NCBI GenBank assembly: GCA_018524725.1
Contig: JAEUWP010000361.1
Coordinates: 1 to 20,128 of the forward strand
Length of the DNA stretch: 20,128 nucleotides
Reading direction: 5' to 3'
Origin: Podaxis mareebaensis
Taxonomy: Eukaryota; Basidiomycota; Agaricomycetes; Agaricales; Agaricaceae
Shown: piece after piece, positions 4,440-18,290 of the stretch
How the letters are laid out: each line of letters begins with the position of its first letter
Position numbering within the stretch: the stretch's first letter is position 1
Program-made: the position numbers and the translations under genes
Notes under the pieces: model-generated
Seen by the model: the letters and a program-made list of their open reading frames with translations, nothing else
Told to the model about the DNA's origin: nothing
The model's database searches: none

Positions 4440-6411
4440 CAAAGATCTTCAATATGGTTTACAACAATTGTGTCAAGAGGAAGGGAGTGGCCTGATGAAT
4501 GGATAAGTGACAATATAGGTTCCTCCACTTCCTTGACTGATGAAACTGTTGCTGGGGCTGTAGGAACTCTCTTCAATGTGACTTGGTCTTTTATGAAGTG
4601 ATGAAGGTCTGGCAAAATCATGAGGAGTTCTCATTGAGTTAGAGTAACTGTACTCTCCATCCCTTTCTCAATGACCTTCTGGACCAGTGACAAGTCTTCT
4701 ATAGGAGATGTGTAGTGAAACTGAGGTGCAGACAATGAAGGTGAAGATGTAGATGATGGTCCAGGGGGTTGAGACAAAGGAGATGAAGATGCCAAGGGTG
4801 GAGATGGAGTAGTAGTAGATGTCACAAGTAAGAGTTGTCACCCTTTAGCCCCTTCTTTCATGCTAATGCTCAATGTCCCTTTTCCCTTCATAGAACTCCC
4901 TAACTTCTTCTGGATGTCTTCAGCCCTCTTGAGAGATGAAACAACAACTGAGTCTAGGAGTCAGAGCTCTTCAAGCTCATCTGTAGTGACTTCTCCTAGG
5001 CTCTCAGAGGTGTTGGAGGTAGCTGGTGGCATAACCCAGGTGTATTGATGAATGTCTGGAGAAGGGGTAGCTTCAATGATGTTTGATGTAACAGGAGGTG
5101 TGTTTCAAGCCTTATAGTAATTATCCAACCTCTCCTTGATGTTTCTCCCAGGTGCAAGCTTGGATGTGATAACAGTGCTGTCTGGGAGAGCAATACAATG
5201 ATCCTCATTGTGCTTGCACAGCCCTTGAGTAATGTAGTTTTTGGCCTCAGAACATCAGTGATGGAAGTGGTTGGGGTCTGAGCAAAATGTGCAATCAGTG
5301 TTGTGAGGACAAGAGGATGAGGTACTTTCCTGGGGCCTATTTCTGTTTGAATGACTTCCCAACTTCCCAGCTAACTTGTCAAGAAAGGCATCTGAAACAA
5401 GGAATTGCTCAAGTGATGACATATTGAAAGTTTCACAAGCTTTTGGGGGTGGTGGGAGTACTGATGGAGAGTGTGATGAAGGGGTATAAGAGGATGTTAC
5501 TGGTGGTAAGGGAGAGGGACCTGAAATTGTGTATGATGGTGGACCATAGGCTGAGGGAGGGGGATAGTAAGGTGTATGACTTGGAAAGCCTCCAAGTTTA
5601 CTTGCAGCTGAGGTAGTGTTGAGAAGGAATTGAGCAGCTTTGACTACCTTGTCCATGGGCCATGGTTGATAGAGAGGGTGGTTGGGATTCTTGAGACAAA
5701 GTCAAGAGGTAAGCTTGTCACAAAAACTTGGGTCAAATCCACTAAAGAAAATCATATCCCTCTCACAACAAGATACTGTATCTTGTTCCTGCCCATAAGC
5801 CAGTCACTAATAGTCAAGAATTGATGGTAGTACTCACTGAATTGATATTGAGATTGCATAGGAACAGTTGCCTGATGATCAGCTAGAGCTTTGAGGTCAT
5901 AGAATGTATATTTACAATCCTCTTCAGCTCCTGGGTACAAGGCCATGATGTCTCACTTGAGCTACTCCCAGTCTCCTCCACTTGCACTGGGTCTTCCCTT
6001 CCACATCTCATATTCTCTCCAGCTCAGGTATTGTAATGTATAGTGAATCATGTCTTGATTGTCTAGCTGACAAGACCTACCCAAGGTCTCAATTTCATTG
6101 AAGAAGTGTTGGAGGGAAAGTGGATGACCATTGAATTTTGGAGCACTTTGATCACCTGGGGCAGGCATACTATGAGGGTTGGGGGGAGCTTGGATAACAA
6201 TAGGCTAGGGTGGAGATGGTGGTACAAGTGGTTGTGGAGTGACCATATGACCATCAGGAGTGCACCAATTTGCAGGAATGAATTGGGGACAAGCAGGAGT
6301 GTGAGTGCCAACATTTGTGTCATCTCCTGACATGCTGAAGTAACAATAACAAGGGTGATAGTTGTAGTGACACTGCAATAAGACTTCTGATTCATCTCCA
6401 GCCTGAGACAT
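4440..6411 (-). pseudogene. gypsy Gag with CCHC knuckle and DUF4100-like domain, frameshifted and stop-containing
   Basis: Start ATG at 6409-6411. The Gag core reads through NHFP-poor, PAPG...FNGHPLSLQHFFNEIE and ALYPGAEED motifs typical of basidiomycete gypsy Gag. A frameshift near 5765 moves the reading from one frame (6411-5765) to another (5765-4440), where it resumes with a FSGFDP motif and VVKAAQFLL. The zinc knuckle at 5252-5293 is a canonical C-X2-C-X4-H-X4-C, with a TGA (5255-5257) occupying the residue before the last Cys. The DUF4100-like part shows SPIED, then VTLTQ followed by TGA (4631) and ELL; Arg is the usual residue there in the family as I recall it. Stops seen: TGA at 5953, 5702, 5255, 5105, 4961, 4838, 4631 and TAG at 6205, 5962. 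No CpG remains anywhere in it. Confidence 0.72.
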
Positions 6412-6581
6412 GTTGAAGACTGAAAGATGGAGGCTAGGTGATGGGAATGAAGTATCTGATGGAGTGAAGGAGTAGAAAATAGTATGTGGAGAAAGAGGGT
6501 GGAGAGGAGATAAGAGGGGATTGTTAAGGATGAGAGAGATTTCTTTGGCAAGATTTCAGTCTGGAATCTTGAGTTAGATGC

Positions 6582-6600
6582 CCCTCACAGTGGGCTCCAA
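6582..6600 (-). other. primer-binding-site-like sequence of the second gypsy element
   Basis: The minus strand reads TTTGGAGCCCACTGTGAGG, the recurrent arrangement of a TTTGG-start primer site followed by GCCCAC directly after an LTR. It lies 171 bp upstream of the Gag ATG. The primer tRNA is not identifiable here. Confidence 0.4.
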
Positions 6601-6601
6601 A

Positions 6602-6907
6602 TGATGAGGTGAGTTTGGGGTTGTAGCAAAGAATGCCAGCATCTGTCTGGCATTGGGAGTGGTTATGGGATAAGGCAAGGTAGAGAGTTGAGAGTGAGAA
6701 GAGAGCTGAGGAAAATATGAGGGTAAAACAACTTGTATTCATCATACCTATGACATGGTTTTATACTACAACTAATAAAGTTTTTGTTCATTAGGGAAAA
6801 TGCTAGAAAACAGTCAAGAAAATAAAGAAATGAAAGGAAAGGTACAAATATTGTATTTATGATGATATTCCATTCTAAAGTGTCTGTTTACAAGTATAAT
6901 GGGAACA
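6602..6907 (-). repeat. candidate 5' LTR of the second gypsy element
   Basis: The inner edge is fairly well placed: minus-strand sequence ends CA at 6603-6602, directly before a TTTGGAGCCCAC primer-site-like motif. The outer edge at 6907 (TGTTCCC) is a guess from the TG rule. A TATAAAACC box at 6757-6765 (minus) and a downstream pyrimidine-rich leader fit an LTR promoter. No second copy is available for comparison. Confidence 0.35.
6757..6765 (-). promoter_or_regulatory. TATA box in the second gypsy LTR
   Basis: The minus strand reads TATAAAACC about 350 bp upstream of the Gag ATG at 6411, inside the LTR candidate, followed by CT-rich leader sequence. Position and sequence suit a Pol II LTR promoter. 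Confidence 0.4.
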
Positions 6908-7407
6908 TACTTTAAATACAAGACATGAAGTCAAAACAATAATCAGATGTCAGATGCCTCTTGATGGCATAGTGCATTTGGAGAGTGGATCCCATCATTG
7001 AAGGGGTCAGACACCACCTTCCAAAGATGGAAGGAGATGGTGTGCAGAATGTTGAGGACTTCATTTGCATGTTCTGGAGGCATTGGAGCAATGAATTATA
7101 AACCAGCAGTGATTTTGTATGAGAGGAGGGAGGATGGTGTCACAAGACACCAGGCAAGCTCTGATCTCTATAATGTAGTCCACAGTCATTAAGGTTCAGA
7201 GGAATTTGTGAAGTTTTCTGGTAGAAGCATAGACATCATCATAGGCAGTGTGGATTCCCTAAGTCCTTTATACAAAGTTGATTGGTCATGTGATTTTTTG
7301 TGAGGGGTGATGAGCATCACACACAAGGGTCACTGCAGGGCTATATAAATCCTTCAGATTAATTGTGTCTGTTCTAATGATATAGACCAGAGCAACCAAT
7401 GCACATC
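6908..7407. other. 500 bp without an identified gene
   Basis: Between the second gypsy LTR and the kinase relic. It contains no CpG. On the minus strand at about 7082-6950 there is a short open stretch beginning MPPEHANEVLNILH and containing FHLW, about 43 residues, which looks protein-like but which I cannot assign. A TATATAAAT string occurs at about 7342-7350. Nothing else is recognisable. Confidence 0.3.
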
Positions 7408-9682
7408 TCAAGTTGACAACTCAGAGCCCTCCAATACAAATAAATGCATGTCAAATACATGAGAAAGAGCAATGAATGAGACATTGTCACCTAGTGTCAC
7501 ATCATCAAATGGTGTTGCAGGCTGAGCCCAAGTGTCAAGATTCTTCAATAGGTTTTTCATCCAATCCAAGAAACCAAGCACAAATGCAGTGTGAATGGGA
7601 ATAAGCCACTTTGAGAAGGCTTCAAAACCAGCACATGGAGGCAATGGCCCTTTGCTAAAGAAAAATGTCTTTGCTGCATACAAGGCATCACCTCTCAGGG
7701 TAAACCATTTCTGAATAATGGGGTCTGTTTGATCACAAACAGCACAGACAAAAACATAGTACAGAGATTCAAGATCATGATGGTAGAGATGGGCTGGAGG
7801 TAATGGTCCCAGGAGATCAATGGCCATATATGGCATCATCTCCATGTGCTGACAAGAACTTGGGCTGTCCCATTTCATGTCTGTCTGAATAGCAAGGTCA
7901 TAGTCATTGAGGACTCCATATGGACAAGGGCTGCCACAACAAACCATGATGTTTGCCTCACTCAGATCACAATGAAGTATGTGGGCATCTTTGACCAGCC
8001 ATTGATAGCCTAAAGGCATAAGAAGGGGGTATGGCATATAAGATGAATACACTCACAGTTAAAGATGTCCCTAAAGACCAACTCATAGTCACTAGATTCA
8101 GTGAGAGTCATAATTGGGCTGAGCTCCTCAATGACAGCAAAATGAAAGACATGGAGCTCATAGTCCTCTGGGTAAAAAGCAGCCAAACATTGTTGAATTG
8201 CTGTAAATGGCAGATTGGCAGAAAATCATATATCAGGGAGATGTTGCAACACCCAGTGTGTATTGTCGTGAGATGCCTCCTCATGAATGGTTTTGATCAA
8301 GTTTGGCTTGGACAGCCAAGATTGTGCTGGTCAGGAGAGCTTGACTACACATGCAGTGCCTTGTTGCTGGACAAGATCTGACTCAGGCCTAGCTTCACTG
8401 GCTGTGGCCCAGATGACAAAGATGCCTCTGCCAATAATCCCATGCTGGTAGAACAGAGTCTTTCCTAGGGTCAAATGGGAGTGATCCCTGGGAAGAGACA
8501 GTGTGCCACCCTCAAAGAGATTGAGAGTTGGCTTTCAGTGGTGTCTGCACTCAGGGGGTTGGGGAGGTAGGGTGATGATTTCAGAGTGGCCCCACTTCAT
8601 GTAGGTGGTGGCATCCAGAAGATGAATGAAATCCCTGGGGTTGTTGATGATATGGACAAAGGACAAGACAATGACCATCAAATGATCATAGTAAATGAGC
8701 TGAATCTCCATGTCCTTGGTATACATGTACAGGACAAAGTCACAAATCCTACCATGGGCACATATCTCTAGAGAATAGCTTGCACACTGAACCTGGTCTC
8801 TGTCCCCTGTCTTCCATTTGCCCTTCAAGTCGAGCAGCATAGGAGACAGGAGTGATTGACCTGCAGAAGTTGAGGCCTCTAAAACAACAGCTGAATATTG
8901 CCTTCATAGAACATGGGGAACAAGACAAACTAGGAGTCCCATGCACATCCTTGTCAGTGCCTGTTCTTGGTTTCTTGGTAAGGCATGTTGATTCAGGAGG
9001 GTGGTCAAAGGATTGTTTCTTGCCAGCTGAGGAAGATTGAGGAGTCATGTCTGATATGAAAAGTTACCCTCAAATAGAAAAGAAATGGGAAGCAGGATGG
9101 ACCAGTAGTGGTGCCCCTGTACTTGAACTTGTTGAAACCCAAAATCTGATCCCACCAAAAGGGCATGCTGGGGCCCTTTGCATTGCAGGATTTGATGGTG
9201 AGGTTCTCAGAGAAGTGCATTGCATCAAGGACCACAAGGTCTGGCTTCCTGGGTGCATGAGAGCTGGATACAATTGAATTGTCATTACAATAGAAGCAAA
9301 ATTCCATGTGGCCAAGGCAATCCCAGACTACATTCACAAGGGTGATGAATGGGACATAACAGCTTGCCTCACTGGTGGAGGCTGCTTCATATTGTCACAC
9401 CATCAGTATGAAATGAGGATCTTGGGTTATCTCATCCCAAAGATCTTTTTAGATGTCTTTCTGCTTCTCATCACACCCACAGACCATATACAGAAAGTCT
9501 TCAAAGGGCATGCCCTTTGTGTGTTCAACATTGTGTTGGATATATGGTGCATAGTTGACCTGGGTGGTCTGGATATCATGAGAGACATGGCTGCTAGTAC
9601 CATAATTGTATGGAGTATTTTGGATCAGGCCTATGTTGACAGATGTGCTCTTCTGCTGGTGAGGGCTGCTGAGTGTGGCCAT
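7408..9682 (-). pseudogene. FunK1-type fungal protein kinase, pseudogene
   Basis: FunK1 kinases are a large, multi-copy basidiomycete family of serine/threonine-type kinase-like proteins. The likely start is the ATG at 9680-9682 (MATLSSP). The N-terminal FunK1 region spans about 9682-9070 (IGLIQNTPYN, MPFEDFL, then FWWDQ). A variable Ser/Lys-rich linker lies at 9048-8850, and the VQCASYSLE and IQLIYYD motifs follow at 8780-8690. The core follows in another frame down to 8057. A 47-bp GT-AG intron (8010-8056) leads into the catalytic loop, HCDLSEANIM at about 7974-7945, then NDYDLA, MAIDLLG and HDLESLYYVF. The HRD Arg is Cys here. In-frame stops are TAA 9449 and TGA 9395, 8535, 8331 and 8226; the joins near 9070 and 8850 change frame (missed intron or frameshift). 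The terminal TGA at 7408 may be genuine. Catalytic Asp and the DFG-equivalent DYD survive. Confidence 0.8.
8010..8056 (-). other. intron in the FunK1 pseudogene
   Basis: Minus strand GTGAGT at 8056 and TTTAG ending at 8010, 47 bp. Removing it joins the frame ending in RDIFN to the frame running QWLVKDAHILHCD through one split Cys codon, giving an uninterrupted catalytic loop. This is typical of the short introns of basidiomycetes. Confidence 0.7.
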
Positions 9683-10547
9683 ACTGCTTGTGCTTCTGAC
9701 TCCAAGCACCCATTGACACCTTTTACACTCACTCAGAGACCACATGACTTGTCTCACTTGGGAGGCTCCACATGTGCTTTTCCATTCTTGTGCTGTTGCC
9801 ACATGCCAGGGGACATGAAACAAAGACAAATAAGACAGGATACCAGACCATGAGAGACTACACCAGAAGCTCTGGAGTTGTGTTTCTGAGTTTTCAGGTG
9901 TTGGTTATAGTCATGAATACTATGACAAACCACATTGCATGCATCACAAGTGAGAACATTGTGGTTGTGTGGACAGCTGCCATCATTGCAGGTCCCAGAG
10001 GCAAGGTGTTAGGTTGGTCCTTATCACCAGTCACCTAAGCTTTGCTAGGGGGCAGCTATCTCACTAGATGGTTTGCAGAGGCACTAGGATCTAGCAAGAA
10101 GGATCACAATAAGAAGGTGGTGAGGCAAGTGTCCAGTTAAGCACACTTAGAGGTTGAACTTCTATTAGTCAAGGATATGACCAATAGAGAGTTTACTACC
10201 ACACTGATTGTGAGCTAACATCAATCCAGAGATAAAGCAAAAGCAATATTCTGAGATTTGAGAATATAGGAAGCTTGCACTTCCAGTACATGGGCAGCTA
10301 TTTAAGCTTTACTTCTAATGTCCTAAGAAGGTAACTATGATGAAGTAAGTTATGAGTCTGAGAGTCAGTAGAAGTGAAGCTATGGAGTGGAGTGAGACAA
10401 GAATAGAACTGAGACAAGAATAGAAACTAACAAGAAAGGAAACTAACTAACTAAGAAAACCATACAAAACAGAGTTCAGGCAAGATACAGGGATACAAGG
10501 TGAAGTGTCTGTAACAAGATAGAAAGGAAACTGTTTACTTAGTTATA
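9683..10547. other. 865 bp without an identified gene, with a short tandem repeat
   Basis: The region upstream of the kinase relic. No CpG is present. ORFs here on either strand resemble nothing I know; the kinase frame stays open to 9829 but without an in-frame ATG above 9682. A 17-bp unit (TGAGACAAGAATAGAAC) is tandemly duplicated at 10393-10427, followed by a CTAA-rich stretch. Confidence 0.3.
10393..10427. repeat. 17-bp direct tandem duplication
   Basis: TGAGACAAGAATAGAAC at 10393-10409 is followed immediately by a second copy with one extra A near its end. No function is evident. Confidence 0.6.
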
Positions 10548-11363
10548 TTACAAGTCCATATTGGGATGAAGATGTCCATTGGAATTGGAAGAGTATGAGT
10601 CTGGTGATGAGGTGGAACTGGGAATGGTGAAGTTCCCAATGGGAGGTGAGTCAGAGGAATCTGACTCGTGGATGACAAGCATGCTGTGATGAGGAGATGA
10701 TGATGATGATGATGACAATGAGATGTCTATGGTGATGTAGGGAGGTGGACAGGGAGGAGGATCCACAGTGGGTTCTGAGTCATCAATGCCAGGGACATTG
10801 GAGTCAATGCTGCAAAGTGGAGGGAGCTGCAATCTGCAGGGAGGAATGGCCAGAGGTTCATCAGAGTTAGGGTCGAGACAATAGACTTCTACTTCTTGAA
10901 AGTAGAGTCTGTGAGTGACTTCATATTTGATAATATGCAGGACAACCTCGGGTGGGTACATCATGTATGGATGAAGGAATATGATCAGCTCTCCAGCATA
11001 AGGGATCATCTTCCAACCATGTGCCCAGGCAGAGTTGAAGTTGTTGTGGATAGTCTGGACATACAACCTGTCAGAATTGAAGACATGAGTGAAGGGAGCA
11101 TTCTCCCAGGTGATGCAGAGTATCTCAGTCATCATACAGTCAGTCAAGTAGAATAGCAGTCTGGGTGTTGGCCAGTCTTCTGAGAATAGGGATGTGTGGC
11201 CAGGAAGGCAATGATTAGCAAAGGCTTCATTGCAGTAGCATACAGAGTCTTCAGCTGGTATACCTGTATCTTGGGTGGTGTGGTGGGAGGTGTTGGGAAG
11301 TCCAAGCTCATGGACTAAGGCATTGTAGATGTGGTTACAGCAGGGTGTGCTAGGAGGGTTCAT
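10548..11363 (-). CDS. intact 271-residue protein of unknown function
   Basis: An ATG at 11361-11363 opens a 271-codon frame with no stop. I do not recognise the family. The N-terminal two thirds look globular, rich in Cys, His, Trp and Tyr, with motifs such as FYLTDCMMTEILCITWEN and HPYMMYPPEV. The C-terminal third is low complexity, with acidic, proline-rich and serine-rich runs (Ser7 encoded by a (GAT)6 microsatellite on the plus strand). No signal peptide or membrane segment is obvious. A TATAAAAGG box lies 72 bp upstream. Its neighbours, RPT6 upstream and the kinase downstream, are broken by many stops in the same CpG-poor zone, yet this frame is clean, and three of the few CpGs left between 4.3 and 12.9 kb fall in it. 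It may be a real gene, a remnant spared by chance, or part of an unrecognised element. Confidence 0.5.
   Translation of the reverse strand: MNPPSTPCCNHIYNALVHELGLPNTSHHTTQDTGIPAEDSVCYCNEAFANHCLPGHTSLFSEDWPTPRLLFYLTDCMMTEILCITWENAPFTHVFNSDRLYVQTIHNNFNSAWAHGWKMIPYAGELIIFLHPYMMYPPEVVLHIIKYEVTHRLYFQEVEVYCLDPNSDEPLAIPPCRLQLPPLCSIDSNVPGIDDSEPTVDPPPCPPPYITIDISLSSSSSSSPHHSMLVIHESDSSDSPPIGNFTIPSSTSSPDSYSSNSNGHLHPNMDL
10696..10713. repeat. (GAT)6 microsatellite
   Basis: Six GAT units followed by GAC; on the minus strand it codes for the serine run near the C-terminus of the 271-residue ORF. Confidence 0.85.
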
Positions 11364-11725
11364 AACACAAGGAGATTGGGGGAGTTTCCCATGGTGGCAA
11401 TATTGGGGGAAGGAAGATAGAATCCAAGCACATCCCTTTTATATCATTGTTCACACCCTAGGATTCCCAGCATCCATTGAAATGTACATAAGGATCTTAC
11501 ATATGGGCATTCCCACTCAGAGGAGAGATCTGATAGTGGCTGATAACCAGAGAAGGGAAGGTGCTGGATATCATGGCCACTGTGGATAGCTGCAAGTCAC
11601 AAGAAGGGGAGGTGGAAACCACAAGAGGACACCACAAGGATGATAGGGAGATAATGATCCAAAGTACAAGGATGTAGTTAAGGGAGCAATTATGGATTGG
11701 AGATCCAATATGTAAAGTACAATAA
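11364..11725. other. intergenic stretch between RPT6 relic and unknown ORF
   Basis: Holds the TATA box for the ORF below it and whatever 3' flank the RPT6 copy had. No other feature is recognisable and no CpG is seen. Confidence 0.4.
11435..11443 (-). promoter_or_regulatory. TATA box upstream of the 271-residue ORF
   Basis: The minus strand reads TATAAAAGG 72 bp upstream of the ATG at 11363, followed by a pyrimidine-rich leader. Spacing suits a Pol II promoter. Confidence 0.45.
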
Positions 11726-12465
11726 CTATGAGAACAACTTGTTGATGGATGTATTCCCTTCCTGGTTCTTCTTCAACACCTACATCAAATGGATGAGTTG
11801 ACAGATCATGTGAAGCAAACCCAAGAAAGAAACCAACCTTAGCAACAGCAAATTTGAAGTCCTCCTGTGTGACATGTTGCCTTCACTCTCATAGAGCATA
11901 TATGCCTGCAGGCAACATCTACACCAACCCAGTTTACAGGATAAGAAGGACCCACCTGCTTCTGTGCAAATACCATGGACTTCAGCACCCAAACACTGTC
12001 CCATCTTCTCTGCCAATGCATGAAGGTTGATCCCATGTTGGAGTGACATCTATTACTACATATTAACCTATGCCCACTGTCTTCTGGAGGAGCCAACACA
12101 CCTTTCAAGAGTGGATACAGAGAACTGATACATGGGCCTCAGGGCCTGGAGGAGGGAACTCAATCTTACAATCAATATGACCAGGCCTTAGAAGCACTGA
12201 ATCAAGGATATCTGGCACAGAAACATTCAGCAGGATGTCTGGCACAGAAACATTCAGCAGGATGTCTGGCAAAGAGGGCAAAACAATACACCAATACAGT
12301 TTGTAGCCATGATAACCTTGATGTTCTTCATTGGTTCAAAACCATTGAGCTAGTTCAGGAGCTCCAGCATTGTTCACTGCACCTCTGAGCCACCTCCACC
12401 ACTTCCACTCTCTCCACATGAACTTCCAATTGAATCAATTTCATCCTTGAAAATGATGCTTGTGG
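11726..12465 (-). pseudogene. RPT6: 26S proteasome regulatory ATPase Rpt6, C-terminal half, pseudogene
   Basis: Rpt6 is one of six AAA+ ATPases in the base of the 19S proteasome cap. The copy begins at Walker B (SIIFKDEIDSIGS) at about 12465 and runs to the C-terminal KLFS and a TAG at 11726. Five exons are kept: 12465-12292, 12211-12102, 12049-11956, 11905-11838 and 11779-11726, separated by GT-AG introns of 80, 52, 50 and 58 bp; every join restores the expected frame. Retained motifs include [45 protein letters not shown] and FAVAKV. Premature stops are TGA at 12374, 12105, 11889 and 11883 and TAG at 12350. Conserved arginines have become Cys, His or TGA. Intron retention means DNA-level duplication, not a retrocopy. 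Walker A and the N-terminal coiled coil are absent, and a working RPT6 must exist elsewhere because the gene is essential. Confidence 0.9.
12206..12270 (-). repeat. 27-bp tandem repeat spanning an intron 3' splice site in the RPT6 relic
   Basis: Two full 27-bp units (12206-12232, 12233-12259) and a partial third (12260-12270). Each carries a CCAG acceptor followed by ACATCC or ATATCC, the start of the downstream exon. The intron GT is at 12291-12290. The lower acceptor gives an 80-bp intron and the middle one 53 bp; the upper would leave only 26 bp. Confidence 0.75.
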
Positions 12466-12596
12466 ACTTAAATTATGCTAATATTTAGTAAATATACCAA
12501 TAAATATTTATTGAGGACTAAATCATGTTTGTGCCAATGGCACAGGTATATAAACTCATAAGGTGTAGTGGGGGTAAATCCTTACTCTGAGCAGAT

Positions 12597-12734
12597 GTAT
12601 TTATACACCATCTCATATAATCATGTGCTTCTATTTGCATTTATTTAATAATAATAAACAAAGTTATGTGCTCATATAGCTATCAAATAAATACAAATGA
12701 AAGCACATGACTATGTGGGATGGTGTATAAATAC
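12597..12734. repeat. imperfect 50-bp inverted repeat (foldback, MITE-like)
   Basis: Arm 12597-12646 pairs with arm 12685-12734 around a 38-base loop. I count 44 of 50 matched positions, and all six mismatches are transitions. The arms start GTATTTATACACCATC. No target-site duplication was found, so it may be a small foldback element or just a palindrome. Confidence 0.65.
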
Positions 12735-12936
12735 TCATACTTACTTGTCAGTAAGAATTAACTCCCTTCCCCCCCACCCCACTCTTTTTTATAGTTTAAA
12801 TATTGCTGTAGCCTCAGTAAACTGAGTTATCCTTGTGTATAATCACCATATATAGAAATAACTTAGTTTCACTGAAACTACAACTATATTTACAGTATAT
12901 TTGAACTACAGTTGTTTATAAGTTAGAACTCTAGTA

Positions 12937-12941
12937 TATAT
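12937..12941. repeat. target-site duplication TATAT, left copy
   Basis: TATAT directly precedes the lower-coordinate LTR and matches the 5 bases after the other LTR (18286-18290). Five bases is the usual size for copia integration; the surrounding TA-rich sequence makes chance agreement somewhat more likely. Confidence 0.75.
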
Positions 12942-13298
12942 TGAAAGATATACAAATAGATTCAGTCACTTGAAATACGTGCAAGTACTAGATATATTCA
13001 ATACCTGAAAGATATACAAATAGACTAAGTACCAACACAATTAGTATAAGTCCAACTTGGTCAAGATATACAATACTCACTTCAGTCACTCAAAATATGC
13101 ATGAGTACTGAAGCAGAAACATACATGGTATATAGCTTTTATAATAAAAGCTGTTGTACAGAAAAATAATATAAGTCATATGAAAGTAAAAAATGAAATT
13201 CACTATTCCTCCTTTCAGCCTACACACCTCCTGACCACTTCAGGTATGCATCTCGGTGGCTGCTCAATATACATGACACTGCTTTGCTGACTCCAACA
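12942..13298 (-). repeat. 3' LTR of the copia element
   Basis: 357 bp, minus-strand ends TGTTGGAGTC at 13298 and ...TTTCA at 12942. It aligns end to end with the LTR at 17920-18285 apart from a 9-base gap (ACAGGAACA missing here) and 17 differing dinucleotides. It directly follows the polypurine tract. Confidence 0.95.
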
Positions 13299-13310
13299 CT
13301 CCCCCTCAAA
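13299..13310 (-). other. polypurine tract of the copia element
   Basis: The minus strand reads TTTGAGGGGGAG directly before the 3' LTR start at 13298. It would prime plus-strand DNA synthesis. The polyprotein's own stop codon (TGA, 13306-13308) overlaps it. Confidence 0.8.
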
Positions 13311-16300
13311 GCATGGCAAGGCCTAACTCATGGGTGAAATGCTTGACTTTGGGGGACAGAAGTGCTTTGGTGAAGATGTTGGCCACCATATCCATAGTAG
13401 GGCAGTAGATTAGACGAATCTTGCCTTCTTCAATAACCCAGCAAATGAAATGATACTGGATGTCGATATGCTTTGTATGAGCGTGGTACTGATGGTCTTT
13501 CGCAAGCACTATCGCAGATTGGTTGTCAGAGAAGATGGTGGTAGTGGGAAGAATCAAGTTGAAGACCTGTGACATGAGCGAGTGGAGCCACAAGGCCTCT
13601 TTTGCTACATGCATCGCACTGACATACTCTGACTCCGTTGTTGACAGAGTCACGATCTCCTGGCGTTTCACACTCCATGATACAGCACCGCTGTTGACCA
13701 AGAATGCATACCTGGATGTGGCACAATGGTCTTCTGTCATGTTCCCATCTGTGTCCATGAAGCCTTCCAATTCTTCTCCAGAGCCCCCATATGTCAACCA
13801 GAGTTCATGTGTACCTTTCAGATAACAAAAAACTCTTTTGACAGCTTCCCAATGAGCATCACCAGGGTTTTTCAAGAATCTTGAGAGAACTTGGACAGCA
13901 TAAGTGATGTCCAGGCATGTTCCAAGCACTGCATACATGATTGTGCCGACTGCTTCCTGATAGGGGATTTTGGCCATGTGAGTGATATCAGCTGTGGATT
14001 TGGGGGACATGTTGGATGAAAGGTGCGTGGAAGGGTCCATTGGTGTACTGATGGGTTTTGTGTCCTCAAGCCTGAAACAATGAAGGGATGTGTCAATGTA
14101 AGATCTTTGAGACAGGGAAATCCTGCCTGCCTCCCAGTCCCTCTTCAACTCAATGCCCAGCAACCAGTGGATCTCTCCCAGATCTGTTATCTCCATGAAT
14201 TCCTTCATTCCATTCTTCACCCAATCTACCAGCGAAATCGTCATAGCCATGATTGTGCAGTCATCAACGTGTATGAGGATGACTATCAGGTCTGGGTCTG
14301 CCACCTTGAAGAAAATGCTGTGGTCCACGTCGCAGCATGTGAATCCCAGGTGATCCACTAGGATTTTGCACAAATGTTGGTACCACTGCCTACCAGATTG
14401 TTTGAGTCTGTAGAGCATCCTTTTTAAATGGCACACTTTGTGTGGATGGGATGGATCAACAAAACCCAGGGGCTGATGCATGTATATCGTTTTGTCATTG
14501 TTGAGTTGGCCATTGAGGTATGCCCCCTTTATGTTGATCTGGTGGATTTCCCAATTTCGGGCTGCAGCAATTGTGAGGACTGTGTGGATGGAGGCGAGCT
14601 TGGCTACAGGAGTGAAGGTGTCAAAGTAGTTGATGCCTGGCACTTGGGAGAACCCCTGTGCTATGAGGTGCGCTTTGTAGCAGACTACATTACCCAACAC
14701 ATCTTTCTTGGCCTTGAACACCCACTTCGATCCAATGATGTTGGCATCAGCTTGTGGGTTGACTAGTTCCCACATTCTGGATTTGTCCAACATGGTGAGT
14801 TCTTCTTCCATAGCTGCCTTCCACAGCTCCCAATCCCCTCAGTCTTTCGCCTCTCTCAGGCTCCCTGGTTCCAGCACTTTGACATCTCCTGTATCTGCCA
14901 TGAATGTCTGGACTTCCAACCAGTCCAGCTCTTCAGCCAGGGTGACTGCTTCTCCTTCAAGGATGGCCCAGGCTTTCTGGCTTGGGTTTCAAGCATGTCA
15001 AGGGCATTCCTCAATTGCATTGGGTTTAGGTGTTTTCACAGTGGGTTCTCCATCATCAGTGGCTTTAGATGTGTTTGCAGTGGGTTCTCCATCATTATGT
15101 GCATTGATGACATCATTATTGAGCTCATCACAATTGCAGGGATAGGGGGCAAGTGGGGTGGGCTTGTCATTGTGTAGAGTGGCATTGCTCGGGGTGGGCA
15201 GTGCATTGGATCGGGTTGACTTCAGGTCAGGCAGCGGTGGCGGGTCATTATGAGGCTCGTTTGCAGGTAAGTGCTCCCCCTCAAGACTGGAATGACTAGC
15301 ATTTACGAAATGGAAATTTCATTTGATCCTGATGGTGCTGGAGTCTGGGAAATAGATGCACGATCCATTACTCTCTGTGTCATAACCCATCCATCACCCC
15401 TTTTTCACTCGCCCACTTAACTTATCTCCTCCTGCCTGGTGTACCCAAACCTCCTCTCCCCATGCTCTGACTGACTGGAGATCTGGCTTCTGCCCATATA
15501 ACACCTCAAAAGGTGTCCTATCTGCAACTGCTTTTGTACCCATTCAGTTCATCAACCACACAACATGTGCAACCACATCTGCCTATAAGAACTTGGGCAA
15601 TCGACTAGCGTGAAACAGAGCATGGGCGCATTTGACTATGGTTCGATTTCGACGCTCAGCAATGCCATTGTGTTGCAGTGTGTCATGTACAGTGAGTTTG
15701 ATTTCAGTTCCACATGATTTTAAATGTGCTCAGAACTCTGCTGACATGTATTCTCCCCCTCGGTCTGAGTGCAGTGACTTGATGTGTGTGTTGAATTGAG
15801 TTTCACACCATGCTTCAAAGTCTTTGTATGAGTGTAAGACCTCTGATTTTGCAGTGAGGAAGTCAATGTGCATTCAACGTGAGTAGTCGTCTATGAAGGT
15901 AATGTAGTATCATCACCCTTTCTTCATCTCTACCCTAGCAGGTCCCCACACATTGGAATGTATCTCTTCACCGAACGCTTTTGCCCTCTTGCCCTCTTGG
16001 ACCTTGGAGATCAGTGATTGGGTCACTTTCCTATACACACAGGACTCACAGAAAAAATCTGTGTCCATACCATCCTCCAACCTCAAACCAGTAACAAGTC
16101 CATCATGAAGGAGTTTCCTTGCTGCCTCAGGAGTGATGTGGCCAAGTCAACAGTGGAGAACGTCTAAAGTGAGTGGTTCATTGACTGTGTTTATCTCCTC
16201 CTCCTCCTCTCTGACAACTTTGTACAGTCCCTTCCCATTTCTGGGAATCTCTGCCATGTGAGCACCATTGACATCCTGAATAATGCATTTCCCATTCACA

Positions 16301-17877
16301 AAAGTTGTAGAGAAACTGGCATCATCTAGCCATCCAATGGAAACAAGGGTGTAACCAGCTTGTGGGGAGTAGAGCACCTCCGTCAGGTGTAACTGTGATG
16401 AGGTAGTGCTGTTGGGCAGGGTGAGGATGACCTCGCCCCTTCTGATGGCATTGAAGGCTTGTTTGTTGGTGGCTCATAGTGGCTTGGGAGGAATCAATTT
16501 GAGTGAGGTAAAGTTGCTCCTGTAAGGGGAGATGTGGGTGGTCATGCCAGAATCAAAGATCTCAACTTGTGTCTGGGGAGCAGGTTCATTAACAATATTT
16601 GTGTCTTCGGTGTCAATCAAGCATGCATTCATAGGTTCTTCATCAATGCTTTCTGTTTCCTCAAAATCTGACCAGTCCTCTGACTCAACAGCATACTCCC
16701 CCTCAACCAATAGCCTGTCAGACTCATCACTGACCCTGGGTTCAGTCTGACTCAATTCTATCTCATCGTCTGACATTTCTTCAACCATGAAGGCATAATC
16801 TTCATCTTCCTCTACTGCATTTGCACTGACATTGGGTTTGGCAGGTACATTTCTGCCCCTTCCCTCCCCCTTCTTTGCCTTGTCCTTGTCAGGACACTCC
16901 CTCTTCCAGTGTTCACCTCCACAAATCCAGCACAGCCCCTTTTTCTTTCCTTTCCCTTTCCCTTTCCCCTTATCCTTCCCTTTTCCACCCACTTCAACAC
17001 TCATAGCATCATCTGTCTGCTTTCCACCACCACAGGATCAGTCTGGGCAGGTACAGTCCCATTCATCACTGATCAGAATGATCAGGATCTCGGGGTCAAT
17101 TGTATGCTGGAGGGAACTGTGGAGTTGGGCAGCTGAAAGCTGATTTGAAGCATATGTTGCAAGCCAGTGAGGTAAGGATTGAATGATTGCACTCCTGTAG
17201 TCATCATCATTGATGACCACACCAATAGTGCCAAGTTCAGCTTTCTGAGTGCACAACTCACTCAAGAAAAGTCGAACATCACCTTTGTCAGGGCAATGAG
17301 CCATCATAAACTCTCGTTGAAGCCTAGCTTGCAAGAAGGCACTTTTGTATGTGTACTCCCATATGATGGCATCCCACATGGCCTTGACATTGTTGTAGGT
17401 TGAGACAACAATCAAGGTCAAGTCAGGGAGTTGCTGAGCAAGGAGGGAATGAGCAACACTTTCATCCCTGTCCCATGCCTCAACCATTTTGGGGGTAACA
17501 GTAGGTGGTGTCAATCCTGTAGTGGCTGCAGTGGATGATGCTGTGGCAGTTGGTGTAGTTGTAGGAGCAACAGCTGGGGATGGTGCAGGCGATCCCTTTG
17601 TGCCTGTAGGTGTTGTAGGTCAGGCTGGAGTTTGGGATGCTCCTCCAGCAGTACTCGGAATAGCAGCTGAGGGTGAGGGCATGGTGAGGGAATTTGAAGA
17701 TGGCACAGTCAGATGTGGCACACTTCCATCAAAGTGTCCCCACAGTCCCTTTCCCTGGATTACCATCTGGAAATGCAGCAAGAATATCACCCAGTTACCA
17801 CCAGACACATCCAACTTTGGGACTGAGGCAGGCAGAACATCGTTCACAGTAGACATTGTAGGATTTACTTCGAGCAT
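13306..17877 (-). pseudogene. copia Gag-Pol polyprotein: Gag, knuckle, protease, integrase, RT, RNase H; inactivated
   Basis: A single frame of about 1,520 codons runs from the ATG at 17875-17877 to the TGA at 13306 with no frameshift. Domains in order: UBN2/copia-type Gag (about 17520-17050), a lysine/glycine run and zinc knuckle CWICGGEHWKREC (about 16910), acidic linker, protease DSG with HISPYRSNF (about 16570-16520), GAG-pre-integrase and HHCC (about 16155-16040, FCESC), integrase core (15960-15600; SDRGGEY and QHNGIAER kept), RT (14750-14000; HVDD box) and RNase H (about 13790-13330; DNQSA, HTKHID). Premature stops are 14 TGA (17620, 17038, 16474, 16147, 15913, 15910, 15874, 15730, 15544, 15394, 15319, 14998, 14989, 14839) and one TAG (15583). 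The first catalytic Asp of both RT (14533-14535) and integrase (15952-15954) is Asn. The last 501 codons (RT-RNase H) are free of stops. Confidence 0.93.
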
Positions 17878-17901
17878 TGAATTTCTTTTCAGCAATGCAA
17901 T

Positions 17902-17919
17902 GGGTCGGGGCCCATAACC
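17902..17919 (-). other. copia primer binding site matching the initiator tRNA-Met anticodon arm
   Basis: The minus strand starts GGTTATGGGCCCC at the base next to the LTR end. Its complement, GGGGCCCATAACC, contains the anticodon-loop sequence of eukaryotic initiator tRNA-Met (CAU anticodon in GGGCCCATAACC). Drosophila copia is known to prime from a cleaved half of that tRNA rather than its 3' end, and this site has the same arrangement. Confidence 0.7.
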
Positions 17920-18285
17920 TGAAAGATATACAAATAGATTCAGTCACTCAAAATACACGCGAGTACTAGATATATTCAATACCTGAAAGATATACAAATA
18001 GACTAAGTACCAACACAATTAGTATAAGTCCAACTCAGTCAAGATATACAATACTCACTTCAGTCACTCAAAATACACACAAGTACTGAAGTGGAAACAT
18101 ACATGGTATATAGCTTTTATAATAAAAGCTGTCATATGGAAAAATAACAGGAACAATATAAGTCATATGAAAGTAAAAAATGAAATTCACTATTCCTCCT
18201 TTCAGCCTATGCACCTCCTGACTGCTTCAGGTATGCATCTCAGTGGCCGCTCGATATACACAACACCACTTTGCTGACTCCAACA
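17920..18285 (-). repeat. 5' LTR of the copia element
   Basis: 366 bp with TG...CA ends. A TATAAAAG box (minus) is at 18114-18121 inside a 19-base palindrome (AGCTTTTAT-A-ATAAAAGCT, 18112-18130). The LTR also holds internal direct repeats: CCTGAAAGATATACAAATAG occurs at 17918-17937 (first two bases in the primer site) and 17982-18001, and a CAGTCACTCAAAATAC motif occurs at 17941 and 18061. Confidence 0.95.
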
Positions 18286-18290
18286 TATAT
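18286..18290. repeat. target-site duplication TATAT, right copy
   Basis: Partner of 12937-12941, directly after the 5' LTR end. Confidence 0.75.

Follow-up and report, generated by a model that had tools for sequence, protein, structure and literature searches.

The two long terminal repeats (LTRs) of a Ty1/copia retrotransposon in the basidiomycete Podaxis mareebaensis differ from each other only at sites that were once CpG, and near-exclusive targeting of CpG in LTR pairs reaches across several copia and gypsy-type elements of the same genome. The element, called W below, lies on the minus strand of contig JAEUWP010000361.1, of which positions 1 to 20,128 (20,128 nucleotides, the window) were analysed; it has a copia-type reverse transcriptase and gag, LTRs of the form TG...CA and a 5-base target duplication. 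C-numbers refer to contigs and L-numbers to stretches taken from the sampled genome (36.95 Mb, 429 contigs). We think it probable that CpGs in these elements mutate within domains of 5-methylcytosine (5mC), through methylation by DNMT1-like and DNMT5-like enzymes and deamination that is left unrepaired, and not through classical repeat-induced point mutation (RIP).

The LTR pair of W

A global MAFFT alignment of the two LTRs (12942-13298 and 17920-18285) has 357 shared columns, 28 mismatches and one 9-base gap. The mismatches fall into 17 dinucleotides, with 11 being TG in one copy and CA in the other, four CA/CG and two CG/TG; no substitution lies outside CG, TG and CA dinucleotides in the 357 columns, and not one CG remains common to the two LTRs. 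An earlier note on this DNA had claimed that the two copies differ only at former CpG sites (11 TG/CA and six CG/TG or CG/CA dinucleotides, with one 9-base gap), and this is exact, down to its example sites 12971/17949, 13155/18133 and 13265/18252. Were single transitions placed at random in these LTRs, 16.5-17.2% of them would score as CpG-class, so that the probability of 28 out of 28 is about 1e-22 and that of 17 out of 17 dinucleotides about 1e-13.

At all 17 sites CG is present in at least one of 15 other aligned LTR sequences, which gives independent support for an ancestral CpG. Sites that are TG/TG or CA/CA in both LTRs of W where another copy has CG number nine, against 11 that are TG/CA, which is near the 1:1 predicted by independent choice of strand, with some of the nine perhaps never having been CG; the same tally for the C420 pair is 13 against 14. 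The proposal that ancestral CpGs were mutated independently on either strand is supported, as is that of a young insertion, no non-CpG differences having accumulated between the LTRs. The features of W are as follows.

12937..12941: target-site duplication TATAT, left, from the flanking sequence (AT-rich surroundings, weak alone)
12942..13298, minus strand: LTR (3' LTR in W's own orientation), from its TG...CA ends and alignment to its partner; 2 CpG remaining, observed/expected CpG ratio (CpG O/E) 0.20
12971..13281, unstranded: extent of the 17 differing dinucleotides that derive from CpG (28 bases), with partner positions within 17949-18268
13299..17919, minus strand: internal region, Ty1/copia; 56 CpG, O/E 0.21
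13306..14811, minus strand: open frame that encodes a reverse transcriptase domain of copia type (RVT_2, E 1.3e-59)
17038..17514, minus strand: gag fragment (Retrotran_gag_2, E 4e-16)
17908..17919, minus strand: primer-binding-site-like stretch beside the 5' LTR, identical in C374, C103, C420, C278 and C91
17920..18285, minus strand: LTR (5' LTR in W's orientation); 4 CpG remaining, O/E 0.38; 9 bases extra relative to its partner
18286..18290: target-site duplication TATAT, right, from the flanking sequence

If the two LTRs had come from different copies through ectopic recombination, the pair would not date one insertion, and an event of that kind is visible in C318, where the right LTR lies within a duplication of the left flank and LTR. 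For W we regard this as very improbable, since TATAT flanks the element on both sides and its LTRs have no non-CpG differences mutually, against 4-17 in six comparisons with the LTRs of C318, C374 and C103.

The reading frame of W is broken many times over because of CpG loss: with the long frame of a copy that is less decayed as reference, the longest segment has 15 in-frame stops, of which 11 are CGA-to-TGA changes. Relatives of its reverse transcriptase that are named with an organism, among the best 120 of 2031, belong to Galerina, Psilocybe, Gymnopilus, Cyclocybe, Mycena and Amanita, all genera of Agaricales. The stretch at 17908-17919 resembles what we take to be half of the initiator tRNA-Met, presumably the primer site as in Drosophila copia.

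LTR pairs elsewhere in the genome

With W included, eleven LTR pairs of the genome were compared, and the pattern is not peculiar to W, as other pairs behave alike. In the nine pairs that still hold CpGs to lose, CpG-class changes make up 185 of the 193 substitutions [W 28/28, C374 11/11, C103 10/10, C318 12/13, C383 14/16, C425 38/38, C131 28/28, C200 32/36, C415 12/13]. The remaining two pairs are exhausted, with 26/35 CpG-class changes in C420 (no CpG left) and 15/31 in C240 (one CpG left), together 41/66. Over all eleven pairs the count is 226/259, and C420 and C240 account for 25 of the 33 non-CpG changes (C420 has 8 and not 9 in a multiple alignment). CpG loss has two phases, in which CpGs are lost first and almost alone, and other sites change once the CpGs are gone. 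Clock-like non-CpG change in other copies, which the earlier note had named as the contrary case, was looked for in the ten pairs besides W: four have no such change, four have one to four, and such changes are numerous only in the two exhausted pairs (C420 9/35, C240 16/31).

Several limits apply to this set. The C318 pair dates a duplication and not an insertion, and the rate ratio below is computed with and without it. The left LTR of C415 is cut by its stretch (559 columns), and the right LTRs of C200 and C131 stop at the stretch edge. C425, C131 and C200 form one family (about 94% identical) and are not independent families; the gypsy label is our assumption, based on Integrase_H2C2 matches. 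From L036 a direct repeat of 74.5% identity (49/232 CpG-class) and two inverted rows (15/18 and 14/18) were dropped as not being LTR pairs, and L037, L040, L041, L016 and L019 gave no pair. C278 was left out, its second LTR being split, and LTR pieces in C208, C290, C91, C211, C324 and C294 are without a partner.

Differences between copies, as opposed to those within a pair, are often non-CpG (14/28 for the left LTRs of C374 and C103, and 68-84 per 8.2 kb between gypsy elements). We take these to predate insertion, and hence to date no single insertion. A count of private changes was given up as misleading, two decayed copies mimicking the ancestor, and pairwise classes were used instead. The C240 element (L015, 421-8724) has 652-base LTRs and lies between two pieces of a W-type LTR, so that it is seemingly nested in one, with its CpGs nearly all gone.

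Rate of CpG loss relative to other bases

To obtain rates, hits per CpG per LTR were estimated from the CG/CG, CG/other and TG/CA counts and set against the non-CpG changes. The estimate is 2.24 for W, which corresponds to a loss of 89% of CpGs, and 0.26-0.79 for seven other pairs. The per-base ratio of CpG to other change, pooled over the nine pairs, is 239 (95% interval 121-554); without C383 and C318 it is 302 (129-929), for W, C374 and C103 together its lower bound is 230, and for the four gypsy-type pairs alone it is 132 (56-406). The probability of seeing no non-CpG change in the W pair is 2e-15, 1e-6 and 0.001 at a 20-, 50- and 100-fold excess, which upholds the claim that a CpG-directed process runs far faster than background.

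These numbers bear on the view that W has simply undergone ordinary, slow decay of 5mC at a mammal-like ratio over a long time. The chemistry and the placement of the hits, which fall at CpG, on either strand and site by site, fit such decay, and the few TCG and many ACG hits described below recall the human deamination spectrum, which we count in its favour. As to the rate ratio this explanation is refuted: with the human CpG transition excess of about 17-fold (PMC5619689) some 40 non-CpG changes would be expected in the W pair, where none is seen, and that excess lies well below the lower bound of 121. We hold it to be improbable.

A misreading of methylated CpGs, as TG or as CA, in an assembly built from long reads would affect just those bases that differ here, methylation being able to disturb them. 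This is the least probable of the explanations that we weigh, because in eight pairs the consensus would have to be wrong at an estimated 23-89% of CpGs, because old copies with a CpG O/E of 0 also bear non-CpG divergence, and because one LTR of C383 retains 15 CpGs.

A boundary of CpG loss inside a single insertion

The copia insertion in C383 (L034), which has TTATC at both ends when the LTR is read from its TG, retains 15 CpGs in its left LTR and one in its right, and every one of its polarised hits falls on the right (14/14, p = 1.2e-4). In steps of 250 bases the left flank has a CpG O/E of 0.92-1.28 and the left LTR one of about 1, after which the values fall through 0.87, 0.68 and 0.46 to 0.08. 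The drop lies roughly 0.9-1.1 kb inside the element, the value of 0.08 applying from about 1.1 kb on; much of the CpG is kept in the left LTR and in about the following 0.8 kb, the remainder having about 0.1, and the part of L034 concerned is about 1645-2750. Such one-sided loss would be explained by a methylated domain with its edge within the element; homology-driven RIP should hit both LTRs. In the LTR pairs other than that of C383, both LTRs are hit.

C318 (L009) offers a second case, which is weaker. Here a direct duplication of 555 bp, consisting of the left flank (187 bp) and the LTR, is found at 146-700 and 5365-5919, with 96.9% identity between the copies and the inner duplicate placed after the initial 37 bases of the original right LTR. 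The two copies of the flank have four differences; each is at a CpG that was hit in the inner copy and not in the outer one, while four CpGs are kept in both.

A true RIP-like process at CpG would recognise duplicates by homology, probably around mating, and change C to T at CpG in both copies. Much of what we see is compatible with it, in that mutation occurs in repeats and not in the sampled host-like stretches, affects one dinucleotide nearly exclusively and runs far above background; a strand imbalance in C103 also points this way, and CpG hypermutation of this kind has been termed repeat-induced point mutation in Tricholoma matsutake (PMC6980582). Against it stand the C383 pair, in which one LTR has none of the 14 polarised hits and its partner is nearly exhausted, the C318 flank with no hit in the outer copy and four in the inner, the lack of significant strand tracts, and the absence of a plain RID/Masc1-type gene from the four methyltransferase loci described below (no phylogeny was made). 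On balance we consider a RIP-like process unlikely.

Strand, clustering and sequence context of the hits

Tracts of TG or CA hits on one strand are not significant in W, C318, C103, C420, C425 (p = 0.08), C131 or C200, and the hits are unclustered relative to kept sites except for a nominal, uncorrected p = 0.03 in C200; the earlier suggestion that changes arise in bursts thus finds no evidence in these seven copies. There is no significant strand imbalance in W, C318 or the three gypsy elements. Small strand biases of the LTRs vary between copies and are not confirmed by the three whole gypsy elements.

The fraction of CpGs hit depends on the preceding base. For copia (W, C318 and C103) it is 0.435 for ACG, 0.390 for CCG, 0.298 for GCG and 0.288 for TCG (chi-square over four contexts, p = 6e-7), and for gypsy it is 0.190, 0.140, 0.196 and 0.110 in the same order (p = 1e-4). 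TCG is lowest in both, in copia barely under GCG. The exhausted C420 was excluded from the pooled context counts, and TCG is lowest there too.

Distribution of CpG loss in the genome

Six host-like stretches (L022-L025, which carry methyltransferase exons, and the unannotated L042 and L043) have a CpG O/E of 0.84-0.98, albeit in a small sample, and five old transposon stretches (L012, L013, L015, L016 and L019) have 0-0.06. Within W the loss is equal in body and LTRs, with CG kept at 50 of the 297 body sites where C374 has CG and at 6 of 44 LTR sites (Fisher p = 0.83). Stronger decay of LTRs than of the body, as homology within the element might give, was considered and set aside, being absent in W, reversed in C318 and C103 and not significant in C374.

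DNA methyltransferases and glycosylases

A search of the genome with PF00145 gave five exon matches in four loci. Exons on C109 and C384 best match DNMT1 structures, making two DNMT1-like loci, and the C150 locus matches DNMT2. C147 matches 7r76, deposited as Rad8 (E 5e-124); we take 7r76 to be DNMT5, and C147 hence to be DNMT5-like. Judged by best matches and without a phylogeny, none of the four loci is a plain RID/Masc1-type gene.

The idea that the high rate ratio stems from loss of a mismatch glycosylase was also considered and dropped, UNG-like loci and a weak TDG-like motif having been found. PF03167 has no match in the whole genome, a blank that is probably due to introns. With the ung model there are two loci under the curated cut-off (C150 and C4), and with the mug/TDG model one exon of 23 bits, far below the cut-off, whose translation looks TDG-like to us. 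HhH-GPD has four matches in three loci, and one frame matches endonuclease III. In L027-L033 there are seven Tet_JBP matches, four with internal stops, in DNA with a CpG O/E of 0-0.60; they are possibly transposon-borne TET/JBP genes.

Proposed mechanism

In the favoured sequence of steps, W would have inserted recently, and the CpGs of its LTRs and body would then have turned into TpG or CpA site by site on either strand, an estimated 89% of the CpGs per LTR being gone before any other shared LTR base was substituted. Chromatin domains that bear transposons would be CpG-methylated by the DNMT1-like and DNMT5-like enzymes, and within these domains 5mC would deaminate to T and be left unrepaired. 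The methylation of the sites, the enzymes responsible, the spontaneous or assisted nature of the deamination and the timing in the life cycle are inferences.

A stronger form is that mushrooms have an active, methylation-coupled CpG mutator in place of passive decay, in which enzyme-assisted deamination or faulty repair in transposon chromatin domains exceeds background more than 100-fold per base, stops at domain edges inside insertions and needs no pairing of repeats. We regard this as possible yet doubtful; if true, such a mutator would be a chromatin-gated counterpart of RIP. The mutator proposed in the earlier note stands in part, as a fast CpG-directed process, and the need for one beyond the decay of methylated cytosine is a possibility only.

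A number of observations weigh against methylation-gated mutation as we propose it. At roughly ten times the human value, the rate ratio would demand exceptionally inefficient repair if decay were purely spontaneous; yet the genome has UNG-like loci and a weak TDG-like motif, and therefore simple loss of these repair genes does not explain the ratio. The boundary in C383 is a single case that could be due to gene conversion or an assembly join, and the C318 flank has four sites only (4/4, p = 0.125). The body of C103 has a strand imbalance (84 CA against 51 TG, p = 0.006), an event-like hint. The LTRs of C318 lost fewer CpGs than its body (kept 20/46 against 50/295, p = 1e-4), as did those of C103 (34/46 against 173/308, p = 0.02), and C374 leans the opposite way, its LTRs losing more, without significance (p = 0.11). 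Finally, C415, C425 and C131 are little decayed despite adjoining CpG-poor DNA, and therefore neighbourhood alone does not set the rate.

Relation to known systems

The genome has the traits of basidiomycete CpG-type hypermutation, namely a CpG-only signature, its occurrence in transposons and not in the small sample of host-like DNA, and a gene of the DNMT1/Masc2 class. An earlier survey of basidiomycetes is reportedly that of Horns et al. 2012. Amselem et al. 2015 (PMC4352252) describe CpG-only signatures in transposons of Microbotryum and, weakly, of Melampsora and Puccinia, together with a Masc2-like DNMT1 and the proposal of methylation like that of methylation induced premeiotically (MIP) followed by deamination. 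Our case is like the Microbotryum type in its CpG-only transposon signature, its DNMT1-class (Masc2-like) gene and its lack of a plain RID (PMC4352252). It differs in that the bias described there is at family level, against a consensus or the copy of highest GC, whereas here exclusivity is seen within single insertions, and in that Microbotryum and other Pucciniomycotina are described as preferring TpCpG (PMC5381629), whereas TCG is least hit here. According to a 2026 review, 5mC in most basidiomycetes lies at CpG in regions rich in transposons, and DNMT1-RFD and DNMT5 maintain it (PMC13297926).

Among Agaricomycetes, Tricholoma matsutake likewise has CpG hypermutation of transposons, with two Masc2-like genes (PMC6980582); to that account ours would add a rate from LTR pairs and a domain boundary. 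Rhizoctonia solani AG8 (PMC4014442) and Heterobasidion parviporum (PMC5870257) have a C-to-T bias at CpG as well, amounting to about 40% of their C-to-T changes, compared with 185/193 of the LTR-pair substitutions here. Genes of R. solani are reported to be affected much like repeats (PMC4014442), whereas our sampled host-like stretches have normal CpG.

Two ascomycete systems resemble ours more distantly. The mitotic mutator of Zymoseptoria tritici also changes C to T in repeats and depends on a methyltransferase, Dim2, but it acts at CA sites and does not target CGs (PMC8016269), whereas here CpG sites are hit and dependence on a methyltransferase is a proposal. RIP in Neurospora crassa changes C to T in repeats too; it prefers CpA, depends on RID and is premeiotic (PMC4352252), with both duplicates being hit (RIPCAL). 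Such a CpA preference is not seen here (0/28 substitutions of W lie outside CpG-derived sites), and, unlike the rule that both copies are hit, the LTRs of C383 have 0 and 14 polarised hits, which is one insertion and possibly gene conversion.

CpG hypermutation of basidiomycete transposons is thus already published, and what is added here is its near-exclusivity within single insertions and a boundary inside one of them. A targeted literature search, mostly judged without full text and incomplete in coverage, identified no LTR-pair measurement of CpG decay in fungi. As far as the cited accounts go, they leave open, or argue from the signature alone, whether basidiomycete CpG bias is due to RIP or to decay of 5mC (PMC4352252, PMC4014442, PMC6980582, PMC5870257). 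LTR pairs are an internal clock, in which CpGs are exhausted before other sites start changing, and they recast this question as a rate ratio that can be measured (about 239, lower bound 121). They also supply natural test loci, such as one insertion that is half within and half outside the mutating domain. For genomes of this kind it also follows that insertions would be judged far too old from LTR divergence if CpG sites were left unmasked.

Surroundings of W

W stands at the edge of what looks like an old decayed domain, the CpG O/E being 0-0.07 across 8 kb at 5000-13000 of the window. Inside this CpG-depleted part a protein kinase of fungal type has left a relic (Pkinase_fungal, 7408-8052). 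About 200 bases to the left of W, at 12597-12734, lies an imperfect palindrome of 138 bases with 79.7% identity to its own reverse complement, which resembles a hairpin or a miniature inverted-repeat transposable element (MITE).

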